From Candidatus Neomarinimicrobiota bacterium (GTDB taxonomy: Bacteria > Fidelibacterota > Marinisomatia > Marinisomatales > S15-B10): 62,150 nt of DNA. The notes beneath the pieces are model-generated. The model had not been told where the DNA came from. It worked only from the letters and a program-made list of their open reading frames with translations, and made no database searches. This document shows positions 1 to 12,900 of the stretch, piece by piece. A program made the position numbers and the translations under genes. Within the stretch, counting starts at the first letter, position 1. Each line of letters opens with the position of its first letter. The stretch covers positions 1 through 62,150 of the forward strand of contig JASLRT010000034.1 of assembly GCA_030743815.1 (NCBI GenBank), in the 5' to 3' direction.

Positions 1-1193
1 ACAGCAAATATTATTGGGAATAATATACGTTTTGGAATTGTAGTTACTTTAATCCATAATCGACTGCCAAAGAATCCAAGAGCTAATAAAATAATATTTG
101 CTAATAATAAGCTTGCAAGTAAACCATAAATAATGTCAGGACTAGAAATAAATAGTTGCGGACCGGGAGTAAGATCGTGAATCATTAACGCTCCGATCAG
201 TACGGCAGTGGAGGCACTGCCCGGTATTCCTAATGTCAATAATGGAATTAATGCACCGCCAACGGAACTACTGTTTGCTCCTTCTGCAGCTGCTACTCCT
301 TCCATGCTACCTTTTCCAAACTCCTCAGGTGTTTTGCTCATTTTTTGAGTCAAATCATAGGATATAAATGCAGCTATTGTTGCCCCCGCTCCCGGGAATA
401 TCCCGATTATTGTACCTATAACAGAAGAGCGCAAAATGGTCAATTTTAACTTCCAATATTCTAAGAAAGTTGGCCATTTTTGTTTACCGGAATCAGCAGC
501 TTTGCTGTCAAATTTTCCGTTTTCCAATTGTTTAAATATTTCGCTTAATGCAAATAAACCAATCAGTGCAGGTATCAAAACGAATCCATCATATAAGAAT
601 GATAGCCCAAATGTAAATCGGCTTACTCCTGAAATCGGATCTATACCTATAGTATTAATCAGTAGTCCAAACATTGCTGCAATAAATGCTTTGATCCAAT
701 TTTTTCCACCAAGTGATGCTACTGTGGTGAGCCCGAATATCGCTAAGGCGAAATACTCAGCCGGATGAAATTTCAAAGCGACTTTTGCAAGCGGACCTGA
801 GAAAAATATTAATATTAGAGTACCTACAATACCTCCAATTGTTGATGCTACTAGAGATACTCCAAGTGCCATACCCGGTTTACCTTTTTTAGTTAATGGG
901 TATCCGTCAAATGATGTAACTACAGATGATGGAGTGCCGGGTGCATTGATTGTTACAGCTGTAATGGAACCGCCATAGTTTGCAGCAATATAAATTGCGA
1001 CAAGTAAAATCAGTGCTAAAGTTGGAGTCATTGCATATGTAAAGGGGACTAGTAATGCCACTCCCATCGAAGGAGAAAGCCCCGGCGTTGCCCCTGCTAT
1101 AATACCCATTGTAACACCCAAAATAATTGTAAGGATAGGTATTACTCCAATTATGTATGAAAGTCCATCACCTAAATTTGAAAGTAATTCCAT
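1..1193 (-). CDS. tctA: TctA, large membrane subunit of tripartite tricarboxylate transporter (3' end cut by window edge)
   Basis: This is the large, many-spanning permease subunit of a TTT-family secondary transporter, which takes up carboxylates delivered by a periplasmic binding protein. The minus-strand frame is open from the ATG at 1193 to the window edge, giving about 397 residues against roughly 500 for a complete TctA. The start MELLSNLGDG is followed by the glycine/proline-rich family signatures GATPGLSPSMGVALL, INAPGTPSSV and FPGAGATIAAFISY, and by GIPGSASTAVLIGAL. The start codon overlaps the stop of the upstream TctC-TctB gene by one base (TAATG), so the two are probably translationally coupled. 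The gene is AT-rich compared with most of the window: 22 of 60 bases are G or C at 601-660. The substrate cannot be read from sequence. The family call is firm; the C-terminus is not visible. Confidence 0.93.
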   Translation of the reverse strand, partial: MELLSNLGDGLSYIIGVIPILTIILGVTMGIIAGATPGLSPSMGVALLVPFTYAMTPTLALILLVAIYIAANYGGSITAVTINAPGTPSSVVTSFDGYPLTKKGKPGMALGVSLVASTIGGIVGTLILIFFSGPLAKVALKFHPAEYFALAIFGLTTVASLGGKNWIKAFIAAMFGLLINTIGIDPISGVSRFTFGLSFLYDGFVLIPALIGLFALSEIFKQLENGKFDSKAADSGKQKWPTFLEYWKLKLTILRSSVIGTIIGIFPGAGATIAAFISYDLTQKMSKTPEEFGKGSMEGVAAAEGANSSSVGGALIPLLTLGIPGSASTAVLIGALMIHDLTPGPQLFISSPDIIYGLLASLLLANIILLALGFFGSRLWIKVTTIPKRILFPIIFA

Positions 1194-2704
1194 TAGAATA
1201 ATCCCTCAAACCACTTACCAAGCGGAAGCGGTACAAATAATATCTTATAGAAAATGATATATGAAAACACAATCCATGTTGCAGATGTAATGAGCATTAC
1301 TTTTATATTCTTATAACCTAAATAAATCATTCCGGTAATCATAAAAACAAAAGTGCTTAGGAAATACCCGACATAATTCATCACTAATAAATAAACTACA
1401 AGGAAGCCAATAAATGTTAGAACAATATCAACTCTCGGTCCTGCGTGCTCTACACCCTCTTTATTCCTTAACGTTTTTACTAATAGTAAAAGAGAAAGTG
1501 GAACTAAGGCAAATATCCATAAACGAGGAACAACAGCTGGTCCAACTTCACCACTCACCGGAAAAATGAAAGATTGTAGATAAAATACTATTGAAATTAA
1601 TAGGAAAAAGCCAATTACCATTATCCTGCCAAAAGTATTTGAGAACGATGATTTATATATCAAGTATCCCGCTAAACCAATGACAGTAATCAAACCTATG
1701 GTTAAAATTAATAAAGGGGTCCCCTCTCCATATTTACTTAACCCGTTATTACTAGAAGTAGAAATAATCTCCGACTTCGTTAGATAATATTCGAATGTTT
1801 CAACATCCTGCTTAACAATATCAGTAAACTCATCACCGCCAATGAATTCAACATCAATACCGCCCTTTTCCCAAAATTCTTTCCAATCAGGATCTACTGT
1901 AACTTGTTGGAATAGGTTAGTATACCATTCAATAACATCAGGTGGTGTTCCTGCTTTTAGGGCAAACCCACGCCACATATATTCATTGTTTAGTGTAGTC
2001 GTACCAAGTTCAGCGAAAGTTGGTGCATTAGGGAAAGCTTCTAACCTCTCATCACTTGAAACTGCAGCAATGTACAAATCAGGGTTACCAAGAGCATCGC
2101 GTGGATTACCAACATAAGCAACTCCCTGCTCACCAAGTAAAGCAGCAATTGCTTTTCCACCACTTTTGTATGGAATCCATTTGGCATACATACCATATTC
2201 ATCCCATATTTTCATAGCGGTTACATGATCTAATCCACCAGCTGCTGGTCCCACCCAATTCTGTTCTCCGGGATTTTGTAATGCATCATTGACAATATCA
2301 TTCCATTCAAAAATATCATTTTCTACATTTGTCAAAACGCATTCGGGATCAGCCATTAACATTGCCGTCCAATGCAGCGCATTTACATAATCGCGACCAC
2401 CTACTTGAATGAATTTGGCAATATTTGATTTTGTACAAGCATAAAGATTGTATCCGTCTTCAGGAGCTTGTAGTACCTTTTTCAATGCAACAATTCCACC
2501 GGCACCGGGTTTATTTTCAACGACAAATGTCGCATCTACGTATTTATCCGCTACACTTGCAAATTTGCGAGCTGTTATGTCGATTAATCCGCCCGGACCT
2601 GTATAGACAACAATTTTGATAGGTTTATCAGGGAAACCCGCAAACACAATACCGAAAAGGAGGAAAAATAAAATACAAAATTTAAGTGTTGATTTAATCA
2701 CCAT
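1193..2704 (-). CDS. TctC-TctB fusion: periplasmic binding protein joined to small membrane subunit of TTT transporter
   Basis: This 503-residue protein combines two subunits that are normally separate. Residues 1-23 are a signal peptide. Residues 24-315 are a TctC/Bug-type binding protein (KPIKIVVYTGPGGLIDITAR, then VVENKPGAGGIVALKKV, and AGTPPDVIEWY near the end of the domain). A single hydrophobic segment lies at about 329-350. Residues 358-503 form a four-helix TctB domain, including FPVSGEVGPAVVPRLWIF and a C-terminal helix ending FVPLPLGKWFEGLF. The added helix at 329-350 would let the periplasmic TctC chain cross the membrane so that TctB can enter from the cytoplasmic side; this is inference. 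The gene lies directly upstream of tctA with a one-base overlap and shares its AT-rich composition. The standard layout has separate tctC, tctB and tctA. No frameshift is needed, as the frame is continuous. Confidence 0.88.
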   Translation of the reverse strand: MVIKSTLKFCILFFLLFGIVFAGFPDKPIKIVVYTGPGGLIDITARKFASVADKYVDATFVVENKPGAGGIVALKKVLQAPEDGYNLYACTKSNIAKFIQVGGRDYVNALHWTAMLMADPECVLTNVENDIFEWNDIVNDALQNPGEQNWVGPAAGGLDHVTAMKIWDEYGMYAKWIPYKSGGKAIAALLGEQGVAYVGNPRDALGNPDLYIAAVSSDERLEAFPNAPTFAELGTTTLNNEYMWRGFALKAGTPPDVIEWYTNLFQQVTVDPDWKEFWEKGGIDVEFIGGDEFTDIVKQDVETFEYYLTKSEIISTSSNNGLSKYGEGTPLLILTIGLITVIGLAGYLIYKSSFSNTFGRIMVIGFFLLISIVFYLQSFIFPVSGEVGPAVVPRLWIFALVPLSLLLLVKTLRNKEGVEHAGPRVDIVLTFIGFLVVYLLVMNYVGYFLSTFVFMITGMIYLGYKNIKVMLITSATWIVFSYIIFYKILFVPLPLGKWFEGLF

Positions 2705-3253: not shown

Positions 3254-3895
3254 TCAATTTGCTAACGGTTTGTCGATCCAACCGATGGTGCGCTTGATGG
3301 CCTGAAGGTAGTTGATGTTTTCCACCCCCTCAAGACCTACATCACTCAACGTTTTCAGTACATCCGGAATTTCAGTCGATTCGGAATTGATGGTTACCAC
3401 AGTGTTACCGTCAATCTCCACATTGGCCACTTCACAAATAGTATCGTTCACCATGTGCCCGAACCGCTCCTTATTTACGGTCACGGCTTGCAGATCTGGA
3501 TGAGCCTTCACGAGGGCAAGAAATTCGTCCCGGGTATACTCCTCTTTTTCGAATGCCGGCATATCCACCTGAAAGGCAGGAAAGACTTCTCCCTCGAGTA
3601 CAGTGCAAGATACAGGAAACTCCGCCTTCATGAGAGGATTCCACTGTTCAAGACCGTCTGTTGTCTGCACATAGGTCTTGATGTCCATTTTACCGCCGCG
3701 GATCTTAGTATTGTTGACGTCATTCGTACGTGACATAATATAGATCTCATCCGAGTGTCTCACTTTAACATGTTCCGGGACCGGCGCTGACAGTTCTGCC
3801 ATCCGTGAGGCCTCCCGTGCGAAGTCAGTTCCGAATGATCGGAACTCGAACCTCGGCTTTGATATTTCACCGATCTTCATCTTTTCTTGTGCCAT
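3254..3895 (-). CDS. CYTH-like protein of unknown function
   Basis: This 213-residue soluble protein has no signal peptide or membrane segment. Its pattern resembles a divergent triphosphate-tunnel fold: an early PRFEFRSFG strand, then EIYIMSR, TKIRGGKMDIKTY, LEQWNPLMKAEFPV, VTVNKERF, CEVANVEIDG and TINSES, ending with NYLQAIKRTIGW. The alternating charged strands and the K/R-rich middle fit CYTH, but the canonical ExExK is replaced by FEFR, so the assignment is inference. It is the first gene of a two-gene unit with the clear CYTH protein 13 bases downstream. The pairing makes a shared or modified triphosphate substrate plausible. A start at 3895 gives MAQEKMKIGE; the codon at residue 6 is another possible start. 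Confidence 0.7.
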   Translation of the reverse strand: MAQEKMKIGEISKPRFEFRSFGTDFAREASRMAELSAPVPEHVKVRHSDEIYIMSRTNDVNNTKIRGGKMDIKTYVQTTDGLEQWNPLMKAEFPVSCTVLEGEVFPAFQVDMPAFEKEEYTRDEFLALVKAHPDLQAVTVNKERFGHMVNDTICEVANVEIDGNTVVTINSESTEIPDVLKTLSDVGLEGVENINYLQAIKRTIGWIDKPLAN

Positions 3896-4054: not shown

Positions 4055-5380
4055 TCAACCGGTGAGCCCATATCGCTGCATTTTGCTTCGCAGCGTAGTT
4101 CGAGGAACTTTGAGCATCTCGGCAGCATCTTTCTGACGCCATTTGCACTTCTCAAGGGCTTCCAGAATCATCGATTTTTCCAGCGCCGTTGTGGCTTCTG
4201 TCAGACTCGAAGCATCCGCATCAATCAGAGCCGTTTCAGGTTTGTGGAAATGTGAGGGTAATAGACTGGCCTCCAGCGTTTTTTCTTGGGCAAGGGCGAT
4301 CATCTGGATTATCACGTTCTCGAGTTCACGTACATTCCCAGGCCACTGATACTCCATAAACCTTTCCAACAACGCCGGCGTCATAGTGTAACCATCGCCA
4401 AACTTATCAAGGGAATGTGCGGCTAAGAGAGGAATGTCTGACTGTCTTTCGCGCAGCGGAGGTATCTGGACATTTACCACGTTCAGACGATAAAACAGAT
4501 CGTCCCTGAATTCTCCCTCCTCCATTTTGTGTCTCAGATCGACCTTTGTGGCTGCTACGATCCGCACATCCACAGAAATGGTCTGCTGACCGCCCACCCT
4601 CTCAATTTCGCGCTCCTCGATGGCACGCAACAGCTTCACCTGTAGAGGCTTTGGCAAATCGTCAATATCATCGAGAAAAATGGTGCCTCCATCGGCCCGT
4701 TCAAATCGGCCGATGCTCCGTTTCGCCGCTCCGGTAAAAGCTCCCTTCTCGTGGCCAAACAGTTCACTCTCAAACAGAGATTCAGGCAGAGCCGAACAGC
4801 TTACCTTTATCAGTGGTCCGCCTTTTCTTGCGCTCAGATCGTGGAGTAGATCCGCTATCAATTCTTTGCCTGTTCCGCTCTCACCCTCAAGAAGTACCGT
4901 GTGCTCGCCCGGCGCTGACTGATGAATGCGTTCCAGAGATCGCCGGAAGGACGGTGCGTTGCCGATAATCTCATGCTTCTCAGAAAGACGTCCCTTCAGC
5001 TCTCTGTTTTCGCTCAATAGCGACTGGTAACTATCCAGTTGAGCCATGCGGTGGAGAAGTTCCTCCTGCGAGAATGGTTTAGTCAGGTAATCGTGTGCCC
5101 CCATCTTTAAAGCCTCAACGGCAGATTCAACGGTTGCATAGGCTGTCATAAGAACAACATGCGTCGAGGGCGACCGTTTCTTCACTCGCCTCAGAATTTC
5201 AATGCCGTCATAGCCCGGCAGGCGCAAATCGGTGAGGACCACATCAAACACTTCTTTTCCAAGCGCTTCAGCCCCTTTTTTACCGTCACTGCACGGATGG
5301 ACCGCGTACCCCGCTTTACGCAACGCCTTGTTAAGCGACACTCTCAGAATTTTTTCATCTTCTATTAACAGTATTTTCAT
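4055..5380 (-). CDS. Sigma-54-dependent response regulator, NtrC/AtoC type
   Basis: This 441-residue cytoplasmic transcription activator has three domains. Residues 1-120 are a receiver with acidic pocket EDE at 7-9, phospho-acceptor D51 in VVLTDLRLPG, T84 and K101 (KPF). Residues about 138-365 are the AAA+ domain: Walker A GESGTGKE at 166-173, the sigma-54-contacting GAFTGA loop at 213-218, Walker B GGTIFLDD at 231-238, and the WPGNVRELENV motif. A Fis-type helix-turn-helix ends the protein (KWRQKDAAEMLKVPRTTLRSKM). All catalytic signatures are intact, so it should drive sigma-54 promoters after phosphorylation. It is the last gene of a three-gene unit, and its ATG overlaps the kinase stop by one base (TAATG). 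I searched the operon's upstream region and found no -24/-12 site with correct spacing, so the targets are probably elsewhere. Confidence 0.95.
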   Translation of the reverse strand: MKILLIEDEKILRVSLNKALRKAGYAVHPCSDGKKGAEALGKEVFDVVLTDLRLPGYDGIEILRRVKKRSPSTHVVLMTAYATVESAVEALKMGAHDYLTKPFSQEELLHRMAQLDSYQSLLSENRELKGRLSEKHEIIGNAPSFRRSLERIHQSAPGEHTVLLEGESGTGKELIADLLHDLSARKGGPLIKVSCSALPESLFESELFGHEKGAFTGAAKRSIGRFERADGGTIFLDDIDDLPKPLQVKLLRAIEEREIERVGGQQTISVDVRIVAATKVDLRHKMEEGEFRDDLFYRLNVVNVQIPPLRERQSDIPLLAAHSLDKFGDGYTMTPALLERFMEYQWPGNVRELENVIIQMIALAQEKTLEASLLPSHFHKPETALIDADASSLTEATTALEKSMILEALEKCKWRQKDAAEMLKVPRTTLRSKMQRYGLTG

Positions 5381-6807
5381 TACGATCCCAAAGGCAGCAA
5401 CACGGTAAATTTAGCACCCTTTGTTCCGTTAGAAGATACATCAATCCGACCCCTAAGTCCGTGGACAATCTCCCTTGTCACATAAAGACCCAGTCCTGTC
5501 CCTTCTCCCACCTGCTTTGTGGTGAAAAAAGGCTCAAACAGGTGCAGCATGACGTCTTCTGAGATACCATGACCATCGTCCTCTATCTCCAGGGTGACCA
5601 TACCATCAGCTTCTCCCGTACGGCACACTATATGGCCATTTTCATCCACTGCATCAAGAGCATTAATAATGAGGTTCATACAAATCTCATCCAAGAGATG
5701 GGGATCGCAATAGAGTGCCGGTAGACCGTCTGGATTTTCAAACTTTACATCCGCTTTCTTTGATTGAATAGTGTAGTCCAGGAGCTGGACAGCATTCGTC
5801 ACCGCATCCGCCAGAGAAGCGTCAGTCGTTACATCGCCTCTTCTACGGGAAAAACCGAGCAGTTTTGTGATGACAGATTCAATTTTCTTCAGTGCTTCAT
5901 CGATAAGCGTCAGATACTCTTGACGCTCTTTCTCATCACTCGCATCTGAAAGAATATTGGTGATGGCGTGTCTGATGCCTGTGAGCGGGTTATTAATTTC
6001 ATGAGCAACGCCCGCCGCCAGTCTCCCCACCGAGGCCAGTTTTTCCGCGTGAAAGAGGCTTCGCTCAGAATCGCGCAGTTCCTGACTTGACTGGATGAGT
6101 CGCTCTCTCATTTCATTAAATCGGGTGGCAAGTCTTCCGATCTCATCATCCCCTTCAGGAAGATCGATCTGAGACTCTCCAAAGCTGAACTGATCCACGG
6201 CAACCATCATCCGATTCAACCTCTTGGTGATCTGTTCAGCCATCAGATTGACAACAGCAAGCGTGATCAAAATGACGGTAAAACCTGCGAAACTTATAAG
6301 GATGAGAGCATACCGTACTTCAGTTTGAACCTTGGTGGCGTCGAATCCGAGAACGAGATAACCCCAGACCTTGGATGATATCCCGATGGAGGCGGTTGTC
6401 TGCAGTATCCATTCACTTTTCGACCGATAGATATAATCACCCAGTTGAGAAGGAGGCATCCTCTTGAACCATTCTCCCTCCGTGCTGGATGCCAGCGCTG
6501 AGCTGCCTGCTGCATCCACGAAAACTGCATAGATAATTGCCTGATCCTGATCCGAGCGAAGAGTTCGCAAGGTGCGGTGGAAATAGTCTTCCGGTGGCGA
6601 TTTTCCCATTTCACTAGACAGCATGGCATCGGTCAGCGGGATGGCGCCGATGTGGGCAACACTCTGAGCGGACCGCATATGTTTCTCTAGAACGAGCCGT
6701 TTCATGCGGCCGAATACAAGCACCATAGTCACGGCAACCACACCGATCAACAATGTACCGAAGAGGAGAGTCAGCCGGGCCTTGAGAGTTTGGGGGAGAG
6801 TGAACAT
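5380..6807 (-). CDS. Membrane sensor histidine kinase (HAMP, HisKA, HATPase)
   Basis: This 475-residue inner-membrane kinase has a transmembrane segment at about 12-32, a periplasmic sensing region at about 33-165, and a second transmembrane segment at about 166-188. A HAMP linker follows (IGRLATRFNEMRERL near 223-237). The dimerisation domain carries the phosphorylated His at residue 269 in AAGVAHEINNPLTGI. The ATP-binding domain has an N box (NLIINALDA, 378-386), a G1 box (DDGHGI), the F box (FEPFFTTK) and G2 (GEGTGLGL). The H-box form is typical of NtrB/AtoS-like kinases that pair with NtrC-type regulators, which matches the gene immediately downstream. It overlaps the upstream PhnD-like gene by one base (TGATG). 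The likely signal is the liganded PhnD-like protein, which is inference from gene order. Confidence 0.94.
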   Translation of the reverse strand: MFTLPQTLKARLTLLFGTLLIGVVAVTMVLVFGRMKRLVLEKHMRSAQSVAHIGAIPLTDAMLSSEMGKSPPEDYFHRTLRTLRSDQDQAIIYAVFVDAAGSSALASSTEGEWFKRMPPSQLGDYIYRSKSEWILQTTASIGISSKVWGYLVLGFDATKVQTEVRYALILISFAGFTVILITLAVVNLMAEQITKRLNRMMVAVDQFSFGESQIDLPEGDDEIGRLATRFNEMRERLIQSSQELRDSERSLFHAEKLASVGRLAAGVAHEINNPLTGIRHAITNILSDASDEKERQEYLTLIDEALKKIESVITKLLGFSRRRGDVTTDASLADAVTNAVQLLDYTIQSKKADVKFENPDGLPALYCDPHLLDEICMNLIINALDAVDENGHIVCRTGEADGMVTLEIEDDGHGISEDVMLHLFEPFFTTKQVGEGTGLGLYVTREIVHGLRGRIDVSSNGTKGAKFTVLLPLGS

Positions 6808-7715
6808 CAGCGCGTGCCGCTTCCGATTATATTCCTGATGATGTCGTAATCCTTATTCTGGGCCAACTCAAAACCGTGGGAAAATTCCTCATCCCACGAT
6901 TCAAGACGCTCTCGCATCCCGGGGTCAGCCGGATCGATGGCAAGCAATGCATCGCTGATTGCCTTCTCTATCTCCCGAGGAGTCTGACTGGATACGACAA
7001 TGGGAGTAGACGGGATCGGCGGCGATATGTGGAAAACCTTCAACCCCTTCGCGACGTACTGATCAGCCACCACGCTTTTGACTACGCCAGCGTCAAATTC
7101 CCCACTGAGCACTCTCTCCGCAACAGTCGTATGATAGGGAACAAATTCATATCGTAACAAATCGTCCGGCATGATAGAAGAATGCGCTGAAAGGTAGTGG
7201 GGCATCCACTGCCCCGTTAGAGATTCTTCCGATGGAAACAACAGTCTTTTGCCTCTCAAGTCAGGCAAATCCTCAATGGGACTGTCACTCCGGGTGACAA
7301 AGACGATGTGGAAGTAGTCTTTTCCTTTTGCATTAAGCGGTCTTAGCAGAACGTTGAGACCGTACTCTTTCTGTGAGGTGACATAGATGAGGCTTCCGAG
7401 GGAGGCAGCACATATTTCTCCGGAGCCTAGTTGTTCAGCCGTTCCGGCGTACGATGTGCTAAGTTTCAGTTCAAAAAGATACGGGGTCTTTTCAGACAGA
7501 TAGTCCATGATGGGCTGATAACCGAGATATATCTCGCGGGGAGTATACCGCGACACGACCCCAAAGTACTGCACCGGTTTGTCCACAAACCTGCTCTCTC
7601 TGACCGGTTCTGCAATCGGAATTGAGATATCCGTGGCCCAGCGAAGAGAAAGCCATATAACCGCGGAGGCGGATGCTAAGGCAACGATGAGCGGGAGTCT
7701 GTCACTTCTTTTCAT
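6807..7715 (-). CDS. PhnD-like periplasmic solute-binding protein, probable sensor input for the kinase
   Basis: This 302-residue protein starts with a membrane-targeting segment (residues 7-27) and continues as a PhnD-family (phosphate/phosphonate/phosphite-type) type II binding protein: YFGVVSRYTPREIYLGYQPI near 49-68, AGTAEQLGSGEICAASLGSL, then VFVTRSDSPIEDLPDLRGKR and GEFDAGVVKS. There is no lipobox Cys, so it may be membrane-anchored by its uncleaved N-terminus or released. No ABC permease or ATPase gene lies nearby. Instead its stop codon overlaps the start of a histidine kinase gene, which is followed by an NtrC-type regulator. This suggests that ligand binding is sensed rather than transported. 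The ligand is unknown; phosphate-like oxyanions and other small anions are possible. The family call is good and the sensing role is inferred. Confidence 0.85.
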   Translation of the reverse strand: MKRSDRLPLIVALASASAVIWLSLRWATDISIPIAEPVRESRFVDKPVQYFGVVSRYTPREIYLGYQPIMDYLSEKTPYLFELKLSTSYAGTAEQLGSGEICAASLGSLIYVTSQKEYGLNVLLRPLNAKGKDYFHIVFVTRSDSPIEDLPDLRGKRLLFPSEESLTGQWMPHYLSAHSSIMPDDLLRYEFVPYHTTVAERVLSGEFDAGVVKSVVADQYVAKGLKVFHISPPIPSTPIVVSSQTPREIEKAISDALLAIDPADPGMRERLESWDEEFSHGFELAQNKDYDIIRNIIGSGTR

Positions 7716-8816: not shown

Positions 8817-9830
8817 ATGAAGAAGATCACAATGATGCTTACTGTTCTGGGATGTCTGCACGCTCAGGGGTGGCACGAAAGTTTCTCAACGGATGCAACA
8901 GCTGACGCTTCGTTCTTCTTGGACAGCGATAATACCTGGCAGTGGTGGGGTTGGGGGAGCGTTGAGGTGAAGGAGGGCGCCCTCCATATGAAAGCGGCCG
9001 AAGATATTTTCGGACTGAACACATGCTGGCTTCATATAGGAGAAGCGTCAGATCCTAACGCTTTGGTCACACCGCAAGATGCGGAAATATACGTCAAGTT
9101 TAAGATATCCACTGAGGGTCAGCCGAGCGATGACGATCAATTCCATGTTGCTTGTGTGGGCGATCCCAATTTTATTACCAATACTAACGTATATACGGTT
9201 GCGACCGTCCCTTCAGGAAAGGCGGCCGGAGTGTTCTACTTCGCTGAAAATCAGACGAAGGTGGCGGTGCCGAAAGGATTTATCGAATACGAGGAATGGC
9301 TCTGGTTCAAAATTGTGGTTCAAGATTCGGTCATCAACGGCTGGATCATGCCCGAATGGGGAGAGCCTAATTCGGATACGGGTGAGCCTCCAGTGGAGCC
9401 ACATTTTCAGTGGATACAGTCAAACGTGAATGATGAGACGGGATTCGATCCAAGACTGGTTCTGGTGGCAGCCACAGAGGATGACTCGGTAACCGTCATT
9501 GTTGATGAGGTTTACTACAATACAGCCCCCACTCTTTCAGCAGGAGACGGCGCATTAGCGGTCATCGAGCGGCTTAGACTGAGTCAGAACTATCCGAATC
9601 CGTTCAATCCAGTCACCACCATCAGTTATGAGCTGGCCCAATTCAGCAGAGTTACCCTCAATGTCTACAACTTGAAAGGTAAATTGGTAGCAACACTTGT
9701 GAACGGCTGGGCAACTCCCGGACCGCATGAGACGCATTGGGACGCCACCGATGTTCCGTCGGGAATCTACTTTTGCCGTCTGGAGACGGGCGGATTCTCC
9801 GAGACGAGAAAGATGGTGTTGGTAAAATAG
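8817..9830 (+). CDS. Secreted protein with C-terminal type A (NYPNPFNP) sorting domain
   Basis: This 337-residue protein has a short signal peptide (about residues 1-17, ending in HAQG) and an unrecognised beta-rich N-terminal domain of about 215 residues containing several Trp residues (WQWWGWGSVEV). That region resembles a jelly-roll or concanavalin-like sugar-binding fold, which is only a guess. The C-terminal 80 residues are a FlgD-like/type IX secretion sorting domain: LSQNYPNPFNPVTTISYEL, VTLNVYNLKGKLVATL, HWDATDVPSGIYFCRLE and the basic end TRKMVLVK. Such tails direct export through the type IX system and attachment to the surface. The start is well supported by GGAGGT eight bases before the ATG. 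It is followed by a TonB-dependent receptor, so a role in capturing substrate at the surface is plausible. Confidence 0.8.
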   Translation: MKKITMMLTVLGCLHAQGWHESFSTDATADASFFLDSDNTWQWWGWGSVEVKEGALHMKAAEDIFGLNTCWLHIGEASDPNALVTPQDAEIYVKFKISTEGQPSDDDQFHVACVGDPNFITNTNVYTVATVPSGKAAGVFYFAENQTKVAVPKGFIEYEEWLWFKIVVQDSVINGWIMPEWGEPNSDTGEPPVEPHFQWIQSNVNDETGFDPRLVLVAATEDDSVTVIVDEVYYNTAPTLSAGDGALAVIERLRLSQNYPNPFNPVTTISYELAQFSRVTLNVYNLKGKLVATLVNGWATPGPHETHWDATDVPSGIYFCRLETGGFSETRKMVLVK

Positions 9831-9925: not shown

Positions 9926-12900
9926 ATGCGTAAAGCGATCCGCTCCGTCCTTTTCACCTTTAGCCTTCTACTCGCATCAAGAGCTGTAGCCGGTGTCACC
10001 GGTAAGATCCAAGGTCAGGTGACAGACGTGAACAGTGCTCCCTTACCAGGAGCTAACGTGATGCTCGTGGGAGCGAACCGTGGCGCCGCTGCCGACGCAT
10101 TAGGCAATTACATTATCCTCTCCGTCCCTCCGGGAAACTACGACCTGGCTGTGCAGGTCATCGGATACGAAAGGGTGGTACAGCTTGGTGTTCTGGTCAA
10201 CGTTGACCGTACCACCCATGTCGATTTCCAACTGGCGATGGAAGCTGTGGGCCTCGAACAAGTGGAGGTGACAGCAGAAAGATCGAAAGTAGCGGTGGAC
10301 AGGACATTCAGTGAATACATAGTGAACTCAGAAGATATCAACCGTTCGGTGATGTTGAAGAGTGTCGGCGATCTAATCTCCATGGAGCCCGGCATGGACA
10401 TCCAGGGCCGCGGCATGATACGGGGAGGAGATATGAATTCTATCGCCGCCGATGTGGTCTATTACGTGGATGGAATCAAGATGGTCAACAGCGACGGCAT
10501 GAGTCTGCACAATTTTACCGGAGTCGGCAAATACGATATCGAATCGCTTTCCATCATTACGGGTGGACTCAGCGCCGAGTACGGAAATGCCCAGGCAGGT
10601 ATCGTCAATATCGTAACAAAGGAAGGCGCCGACACCTTTCACGGGACGGTTGAGATTGGCAGCTCCCTGCCAGGCAAACACCACTGGGGTCCCAATTACT
10701 TCAATGCTCCCACACACCGGGATCATATGAAATGGGGAGATTCAGAGTGGGAGAACGAAGTAGATTCACTCAGCGGCCGCAAGATTCACGATCGTATCGA
10801 CTATACAGATCTGTGGGGGCAGAACTATCAGGTAAACCTCTCCGGTCCTATCTTCAAAAATCTCTCGTTCTACGTCAGCTCACGGTTTAACCGCTCCGCC
10901 ATAAACGGCATCGCGCCCACCACCCATTCGCCTGATAACCTTGAGAGCACATGGAAACTCTCCCTCGCCCTCACTTCAAACATATTTCTAAAGACTGGCG
11001 GTGTCTATTCGGACCGCTGGTCTTTCAACTCGGGACCATCTGTGGGCGGCCTGCGCAGCATGGGCGATAACGGTAAGAACGTATTCCTCCCCTTGAACGA
11101 ATCAGCGGCCGGAAAAAGCGCCAGCACAGATCATATGGAATACGTTGCCCTGACACATATGCTGACTCCCAGCACGTTTTATGAACTGCGTGTCTCCAAC
11201 TCCGTAACGGGGCAACTGGCTGAAGACATTGCCGATTCAACCACCGAAAACCGTAAGGACGCGGACGGCTGGTTCAATCTTGGTAGAGACGTCATTTACT
11301 TCGATGAAACGGCCAGGACCAGGAGAGGCGTGAAGCTTGATCTGTCGAGTCAGATCAACAGAAATCATCTCATGAAGACGGGAATAGATTATACTGATTA
11401 CGCCCTCTGGGCCGTCCGCTATCAGGACTACTTCAACGACCGCAGTCTCACCTACATCGGCAAAGATCACCGGCTCAGATCTCCCATACGCCCCAGACAG
11501 TTTGCCTGGTATATTCAGGACAAGATGGAATACGAGGGTCTGGTGGTCAACGCGGGCATTCGCCTCGACTGGTTTGATCCCAACATCGAATACCCTATAA
11601 CACCGGCCTTAGCCGCTTCCAAGTATTACTTCAATACATTCACACGATTCGACTTTGATCGCTTGCGAGAATTCGGCCTAATGAGGAAGATCGAGCCGAG
11701 GATGGTCCTGGCGCCGCGCCTTGGTGTGGCTCACCCTATCACTGACCGTTCCATGATTCACTTCTTCTACGGGCATATCTATCAACTCCCCAGTTTCTAC
11801 ACCATGTTCGTGGAACAGTGGCAGAACTACGGTCAGCGCGATAACGATGTAAATGAGGACGGCGCCATAGAAGAGACCGAGGAATACAACACGCTGCAAG
11901 CTATTCGCGGCTTCTTCGGCAATCCGGAGCTGGACTTCGAGAAAACTATCAGTTTCGAATTAGGTTTCGACTGGAACTTCGTGTCGGAGTATGTTCTGTC
12001 CGTTTCATCTTATTACAAGAGTTCCAGTAACCAGGTGTCCAGCCCGGGTGAGGTACAGCTGAACTGGTGGGATCCGGCAAGCCAGATGTTCGATTTTCAG
12101 TTCACGCACAAGGCGGGCAACGGAATTCACGAAGATATTCAAGGGTTTGAACTGAGTCTCAGAAAGAGCTTCAGCGACTACTTCTCCTTCAGTCTTGCTT
12201 ACAATCTTCAGTGGGCAGTAGAAGGAGCATCCGGTGTCGGCAGCCGCTTCTTTTCACCTGACTCTCAATTTGTCATGGACAGTAAATTCTGGACTTCCCA
12301 CAACGCCGGCGAAGACGGTTCTGAGGAACCCGGCTTCGTTATCCCATTTCTGGCACAAAGCTATGCCAACAAGGCCGCCACCTTCCTCGATTCTCTCGCA
12401 TCGCTCGGTATTGTTATGAGTGAACTGGATACGACGGGTATCTGGTCTGTCGATTTCTGGGGCGCCACAGAACAGGATGAACCGAAGCCCGATGCGGACA
12501 TCCGCAGTTTTGGCAAAGCTCAAATATTCATATCGACACCCGATAAGGTGGGTCCGTGGGGACTGTTAGGCAACCTCAACGTGAACCTCATGTACCGCAT
12601 GTCCACGGGGACGCCCTTCCTCTACTCCCCTATCGGCTCGGCGGCCTACTGGCGCAGCGCCCCACTCGTCACGCGTACCGATCTAAGTCTTGAAAAAGCG
12701 GTCTTTCAAAAGGGAGGAGCAAGGGCGACTTTTTACATCGAAGTATTTAACCTATTCAATCAGCAAGACTTGCGCAACGACGGTGGATTCAAGAGCATTT
12801 TTGGGCCTGGCAATTATATCCGCTGGGGAATGGAAAAACCTCGTCCGGACAATGAGGAGTATCTAAAGTACGGCGACTTCAAAGTCTATTCACGCTATTA

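Follow-up and report, generated by a model that had tools for sequence, protein, structure and literature searches.

A receptor-tethered subfamily of tripartite tricarboxylate transporters encoded beside phosphate and polyphosphate genes

Two subunits of a tripartite tricarboxylate transporter (TTT), the periplasmic receptor TctC and the membrane subunit TctB, are encoded as a single chain in the Candidatus Neomarinimicrobiota DNA analyzed here, and it is nearly certain that the fusion is real. The gene, which we call tctCB, lies in a window of 62,150 nucleotides (the whole stretch of DNA that was analyzed) and belongs to a subfamily with fused and unfused members that is encoded beside genes of phosphate-chain and phosphate-moving families. 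We think it fairly probable that this receptor-tethered subfamily imports a phosphorus oxyanion (phosphate, pyrophosphate, or short polyphosphate).

The open frame of tctCB is on the minus strand, and the plus strand of the same interval is full of stops (Table 1). An earlier note on this DNA had correctly described TctC and TctB as one continuous frame of 503 residues, and had placed it properly at positions 1193 to 2704 while overlooking the strand. Both Pfam domains score over cut-off in the frame, TctC at an E value of 1.3e-25 and TctB at 8.4e-15 over profile positions 4 to 137 of 137, and the best Foldseek match of the TctC domain is Bug27 (2qpq; TM score of 0.86 by target length), with a match also to 25hk (E of 5e-26). 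The stop codon of tctCB and the start of tctA share one base. The tctA gene is cut by the contig end, and its remainder is on a second contig, C63, whose end matches the opening 141 bases of the window's contig exactly; the two pieces match PF01970 at 1.2e-142 and 3.4e-25. By genome search, the window's genome holds only one TctC and one TctB. The three domains of a TTT (TC 2.A.80) are found here, namely, PF03401, PF07331, and an adjacent PF01970, while the usual but not defining trait of three separate polypeptides is replaced by a single frame. The fusion protein had no NCBIfam match, and in a domain search at E values up to 1, only TctC and TctB were matched in the chain, with no DctP or DctQ domain and no ABC permease or ATPase domain.

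Table 1. Features of the window and of a second fused locus
Feature	Position	Strand	Basis or remark
TctC-TctB fusion tctCB, 503 aa	1193..2704	-	PF03401 at 45-299 and PF07331 at 363-494, single frame
N-terminal signal sequence (predicted), residues about 1-22	2639..2704	-	hydrophobic 6-24; helix 2-17
Periplasmic TctC receptor domain, residues about 25-310	1775..2632	-	Foldseek Bug27 2qpq; 25hk
Linker, residues about 311-327	1724..1774	-	low-confidence stretch, pLDDT about 61-67
Extra membrane helix, residues 328-351, predicted out to in	1652..1723	-	hydropathy, basic loop, model helix
TctB membrane part, residues 355-503	1196..1642	-	Pfam match; five predicted helices
tctA, cut by contig end	3..1193	-	PF01970; remainder on L100 (contig C63)
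CYTH-domain protein (inorganic triphosphatase-like), 158 aa	2764..3240	-	PF01928, E 9.8e-17
CL0, 213 aa, predicted triphosphate tunnel metalloenzyme fold	3254..3895	-	no Pfam match; fold comparison
Sigma-54 dependent (NtrC-like) response regulator	4055..5380	-	PF00158, PF00072
HAMP-domain histidine kinase	5380..6807	-	PF02518, PF00512, PF00672
PhnD-like periplasmic binding protein	6807..7715	-	PF12974, E 1.9e-54
TctC-TctB fusion L148, Planctomycete genome G248	4917-6347	+	outside subfamily

A frameshift or a chimeric assembly that joins two genes, the refuting case named by the earlier note, might produce such a chain, and relatives with unfused adjacent genes do exist. Complete fused frames recur across genomes, however, and we reject the artefact, to which we assign next to no probability. 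Among 245 genomes of the phylum, 26 match the fusion protein and 25 carry the fused frame, complete in 22 (21 besides the window's own) and, in 3, cut by a contig edge or gap and continuous where readable (G031, G147, and G204). The sole genome of the 26 with separate TctC and TctB is G185. TctC passes the Pfam cut-off in 24 genomes and is part of a fused frame in 23 of these, and TctB passes it in 25, of which 22 have it in frames of at least 497 residues, two at a contig edge, and one as a separate gene. The search for the architecture across genomes that the earlier note proposed also succeeds beyond the phylum: when contigs of named genomes, a set overlapping that of the phylum, were scanned with a 13-fusion alignment (A1), 48 loci were found, 34 fused and 14 with separate adjacent genes. 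Complete frames are present at 29 of the fused loci, and at five others a contig end or gap interrupts the frame (L055, L065, L076, L081, and L087), fusion at L076 being only implied, as its frame stops at the linker. By record titles, the fused loci come from Neomarinimicrobiota, Cloacimonadota, Planctomycetes, KSB1, Zixiibacteriota, Aminicenantes, and Methylacidiphilales, and the unfused loci come from Spirochaetes, Synergistota, and one member of the Bacteriovoracaceae. We note that L055 (JAGFWP010000027.1) is titled Pelagibacteraceae and that its fusion is 96% identical to that of the window over the part present; the contig is probably misbinned or misnamed.

How receptor and membrane part fit together depends on a helix between them. 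The hydropathy profile has an N-terminal segment at residues 6 to 24, a hydrophobic segment at 331 to 349 (value of 2.49), and then TctB. An AlphaFold2 model of the fusion (mean pLDDT of 83.6, pTM of 0.64) has helices at residues 2 to 17, 328 to 351, 355 to 378, 391 to 413, 425 to 445, 447 to 461, and 467 to 488, and the membrane helices are moderately confident (block pLDDT of 53 to 91). TctB had been described as a four-helix protein, but the model gives five helices after the extra one, that at 447 to 461 being short. Two loops carry basic residues, one following the extra helix and the other joining TctB helices two and three, and their positions suggest that the receptor is outside and the start of TctB is inside. 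We therefore infer, on the predicted model, a periplasmic receptor, a helix running from out to in, a basic loop inside, and a TctB that starts inside. The excerpted text of PMC5812351 also predicts a cytoplasmic N terminus for TctB.

In this subfamily, the extra helix did not originate as a bridge between TctC and TctB, as the unfused TctB already has it. The helix is present in 13 of the 14 unfused subfamily TctB proteins, those from Spirochaetota and Synergistota, L099 being the only one without it, and at L078, for example, the same N-terminal helix is followed by the same basic loop. As controls, we took the other 28 over-cut-off TctB loci in six genomes with a subfamily member of their own. 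One of these, L148, is itself fused and was excluded from the helix count, and none of the 27 ordinary stand-alone TctB proteins, from five genomes, showed a hydrophobic segment ahead of the TctB domain. The start of the Pfam match was placed in two unfused members, at residue 45 (L078) and residue 47 (L090), and the remaining unfused TctB proteins were judged on their first 45 to 75 residues. Thus, as judged from these sequences, the extra helix is a subfamily trait that is independent of fusion and that would have allowed a simple gene fusion on topological grounds. The earlier note was right about a topology-compatible helix between the two parts but took it for a helix added to reconcile them. 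At L099 (positions 5980 to 7327, Bacteriovoracaceae), TctC has 249 residues and TctB has 141, and the receptor is possibly reduced or decaying.

Fusion appears to have occurred more than once. At L148, TctC spans residues 71 to 344, and the TctB match begins at profile position 19; in this one sequence, the hydropathy profile gives four hydrophobic segments after TctC and no extra helix. L148 is apparently an independent fusion without the first TctB helix, which may be another way to fit the topologies. In a quick TctA tree with long branches, 41 subfamily rows were separated from a group made up of 27 controls plus L148. On this tree, the fused label changes four times, whether by fusion or by fission; starred branches force at least three of the changes, and L148 accounts for one. 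TctA scores also separate the subfamily from the control loci.

The genes around the transporter point to phosphorus. In the window, the CYTH gene lies 59 bases upstream of tctCB on the same strand and is followed by CL0, the regulator, the kinase, and the PhnD-like protein, while beyond tctA, on C63 and also on the same strand, are two Na/Pi cotransporter-PhoU proteins, a lipoprotein-like protein, and a porin-like protein, the last two of which had no Pfam match. When neighbors at 28 fused loci were clustered and the representatives were named by Pfam, the clusters were CL0 (25 loci), TctA (25), Na/Pi cotransporter (16), CYTH (16), PhoU_div (15), kinase (13), regulator (13), porin O/P (12), PiT (11), PhnD-like (11), and Ppx/GppA (6). 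At least one of nine phosphate or polyphosphate marker families, searched with one HMM set at E below 1e-8 in flanks of up to about 6 kb, was found at 41 of the 48 subfamily loci (31 of 34 fused and 10 of 14 unfused) versus 0 of the 28 ordinary TctB loci; the Fisher P value of 1e-14 is descriptive, as the loci are interrelated, the HMMs were built from the subfamily's own neighbors, and kinship was uncorrected. The earlier note, right about the fusion itself, had overlooked both this neighborhood and the second fusion at L148.

The partners vary among the 48 loci, with the Na/Pi cotransporter at 23, PiT at 17, Ppx/GppA at 13, porin O/P at 13, and a DHH protein at 3, and these recurrent partners are different, nonhomologous proteins. 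CL0 and Ppx/GppA directly precede tctC at the unfused loci L075, L082, L084, L090, and L098, and Ppx/GppA was confirmed by Pfam for L075, L089, and L090. A DHH/DHHA2 protein is near L077, L078, and L091, and the one tested, that of L077, has the yeast exopolyphosphatase 2qb6 as its nearest PDB sequence (E of 3e-34). Markers were absent at seven loci (L074, L079, L081, L087, L094, L097, and L099), where some of the contigs are short; the neighbors of L079 and L094 are unrelated, and a weak CYTH match (E of 2e-5) lies near tctA at L099. Next to the Planctomycete fusion L074, a 213-residue protein (10317 to 10955, plus strand) has CL0-like motifs at a score that is not significant.

CL0 is the most frequent partner of the transporter, present in 24 of the 25 fusion genomes (G204 being the exception) versus 36 of the 220 others. 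The protein has no Pfam match, CYTH included, at an E of 0.01; its profile is not significantly similar to that of the neighboring CYTH family (probability of 1.3), and against PDB sequences, the profile had only one weak match, to a DnaD-like protein. The tunnel fold is therefore indicated by fold comparison alone, on a predicted model (pLDDT of 91.3), which matches AtTTM3 with tripolyphosphate in Foldseek (E of 3.8e-6) and, by VIA, thiamine triphosphatase 5a64 (Z of 12.9) and YgiF 5a60 with tripolyphosphate (Z of 12.8). In this model, CL0 folds as a triphosphate tunnel metalloenzyme, and it would share the tunnel fold with the CYTH proteins while differing from them in having no Pfam CYTH match. 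Invariant paired charges in the tunnel are a feature of these enzymes; the charged residues E17, R19, E50, K64, R66, K73, E83, K90, K142, R144, E155, and E172, invariant in 28 CL0 sequences, are at most candidates for such pairs. We infer from their family that CL0 and its CYTH neighbor act on phosphate chains. The pair also occurs without the fusion: of the 36 CL0 loci in fusion-less genomes, 20 were examined, and CL0 was next to CYTH in 18 of the 20. In 7 of the 20 (L155, L157, L158, L159, L161, L167, and L168), PiT or the Na/Pi cotransporter adjoined the pair or lay within two genes of it, and several other loci were cut by contig ends. Thus, the fusion takes the transporter place of a tunnel-protein operon.

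How the transporter might work can be outlined from these parts. The TctC domain would sit in the periplasm, with a short linker connecting it to an N-out helix, the same one with which the subfamily's unfused TctB begins, and TctB and the separately encoded TctA would form the membrane part. The receptor would bind the ligand and pass it to TctA, with transport driven by an ion gradient, as is assumed for other TTTs. Tethering would set the receptor-to-transporter ratio and increase the local receptor concentration. We favor a phosphorus ligand because the transporter adjoins triphosphate tunnel proteins, exopolyphosphatases, Na/Pi or PiT transporters, and phosphate porins. A narrower reading, tentative and on the doubtful side, is that the cargo is condensed inorganic phosphate (pyrophosphate, tripolyphosphate, or short polyphosphate), which the cytoplasmic tunnel enzymes and exopolyphosphatases would cut to phosphate. 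Neither PPK1 nor PPK2 was detected in the window's genome (97% complete), and the tunnel proteins there would thus act on imported chains. PPK1 is absent from 243 of the 245 phylum genomes, however, so its absence is not specific to the fusion, and PPK2 is present in 13 of the 25 fusion genomes. Moreover, PstC showed no anticorrelation with the fusion (5 of 25 fusion genomes versus 43 of 220 others), and absence of Pst thus lends no support to the phosphate reading.

The residues of the receptor count against the phosphorus reading. The TctC cations invariant in the subfamily are few (K65, H160, and R245), E121 is acidic, and no polyanion pocket is obvious. The transporter might instead be an ordinary carboxylate carrier that is merely coregulated with phosphate genes, for example, for organic acid uptake under phosphate limitation. 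The TctC fold is nearest to Bug proteins, TphC, and MatC, several of which were solved with carboxylates, the general TctC residues D42, R46, and N64 are kept, and TTTs are treated as carboxylate systems in the excerpted text of PMC5812351. A mere carboxylate carrier does not readily explain why these neighbors are found at none of the 28 ordinary TTT loci of the same six genomes, or why the partners vary by lineage yet all belong to phosphate-chain or phosphate-moving families, and we give this alternative a modest probability. The invariant residues specific to the TctC of the subfamily include P37, E121, Q148, W150, D159, W167, W176, Y197, N200, and W244; they may mark a distinct pocket, but one that does not look like a polyanion site.

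An organic phosphorus compound, either a phosphonate or a phosphorylated carboxylate, would combine the carboxylate recognition of TctC with phosphorus supply. The PhnD-like protein, kinase, and regulator that recur at fused loci, as in the window, are consistent with such a substrate, but no C-P lyase or phosphonatase was found among the named recurrent neighbor clusters, and the recurrent enzymes are of inorganic triphosphate or polyphosphate families. We consider it unlikely. That the chain is a membrane-anchored sensor with no transporter part is suggested by the two-component system upstream of it at some loci, but it is very improbable, as tctA follows the fusion at 25 of the 28 clustered fused loci and overlaps it in the window.

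A fused TTT receptor has both parallels and contrasts among known transporters. In receptor-fused ABC importers such as OpuA and GlnPQ, the receptor is tethered as well; here, the partner is TctA, a secondary transporter, and the chain carries no ATPase domain. The earlier note's comparison with these importers is a reasonable analogy. TctCBA systems have the same three domains in the usual order and in adjacent genes, whereas the subfamily described here has TctC and TctB in one chain, the extra N-out helix, its own set of conserved residues, and a phosphate neighborhood. The TRAP P-Q fusion likewise joins a receptor to the small membrane subunit, but the domains here are TctC and TctB, and TRAP and TTT transporters share no sequence similarity (PMC5812351, excerpted text). 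Moreover, the TRAP SiaQM (DctQM) fusion has an extra helix that bridges parts of opposite topology (PMC5812351, same excerpt), whereas here the bridging helix is already part of the unfused TctB. Rare TctAB fusions are reported among TTTs in that excerpt, which makes no mention of a TctC-TctB fusion. Among the open-licence PMC papers that matched our searches, none was listed with a TctC-TctB fusion, and no title or abstract opening linked TTTs to polyphosphate or phosphate uptake; the match of PMC10356823 to those terms is incidental in the passages concerned.

If the phosphorus reading is true, a phosphate- or polyphosphate-linked branch widens the substrates of TTTs, which are treated as carboxylate importers, and provides an ATP-free uptake route for phosphorus, dependent on a substrate-binding protein, in uncultured marine and sediment bacteria. 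The subfamily shows that a bridging helix can exist without gene fusion, and its fused and unfused members form a natural pair for the effect of receptor tethering. Two other proteins may also be mentioned. The lipoprotein-like protein at L100 (15070 to 15969, minus strand) and its relatives (cluster CL11) look by eye like a secreted CYTH-type protein, with no Pfam match. At 8817 to 9830 of the window, on the plus strand, is a secreted protein with a Por_Secre_tail sorting domain (PF18962), which hints at type IX secretion.
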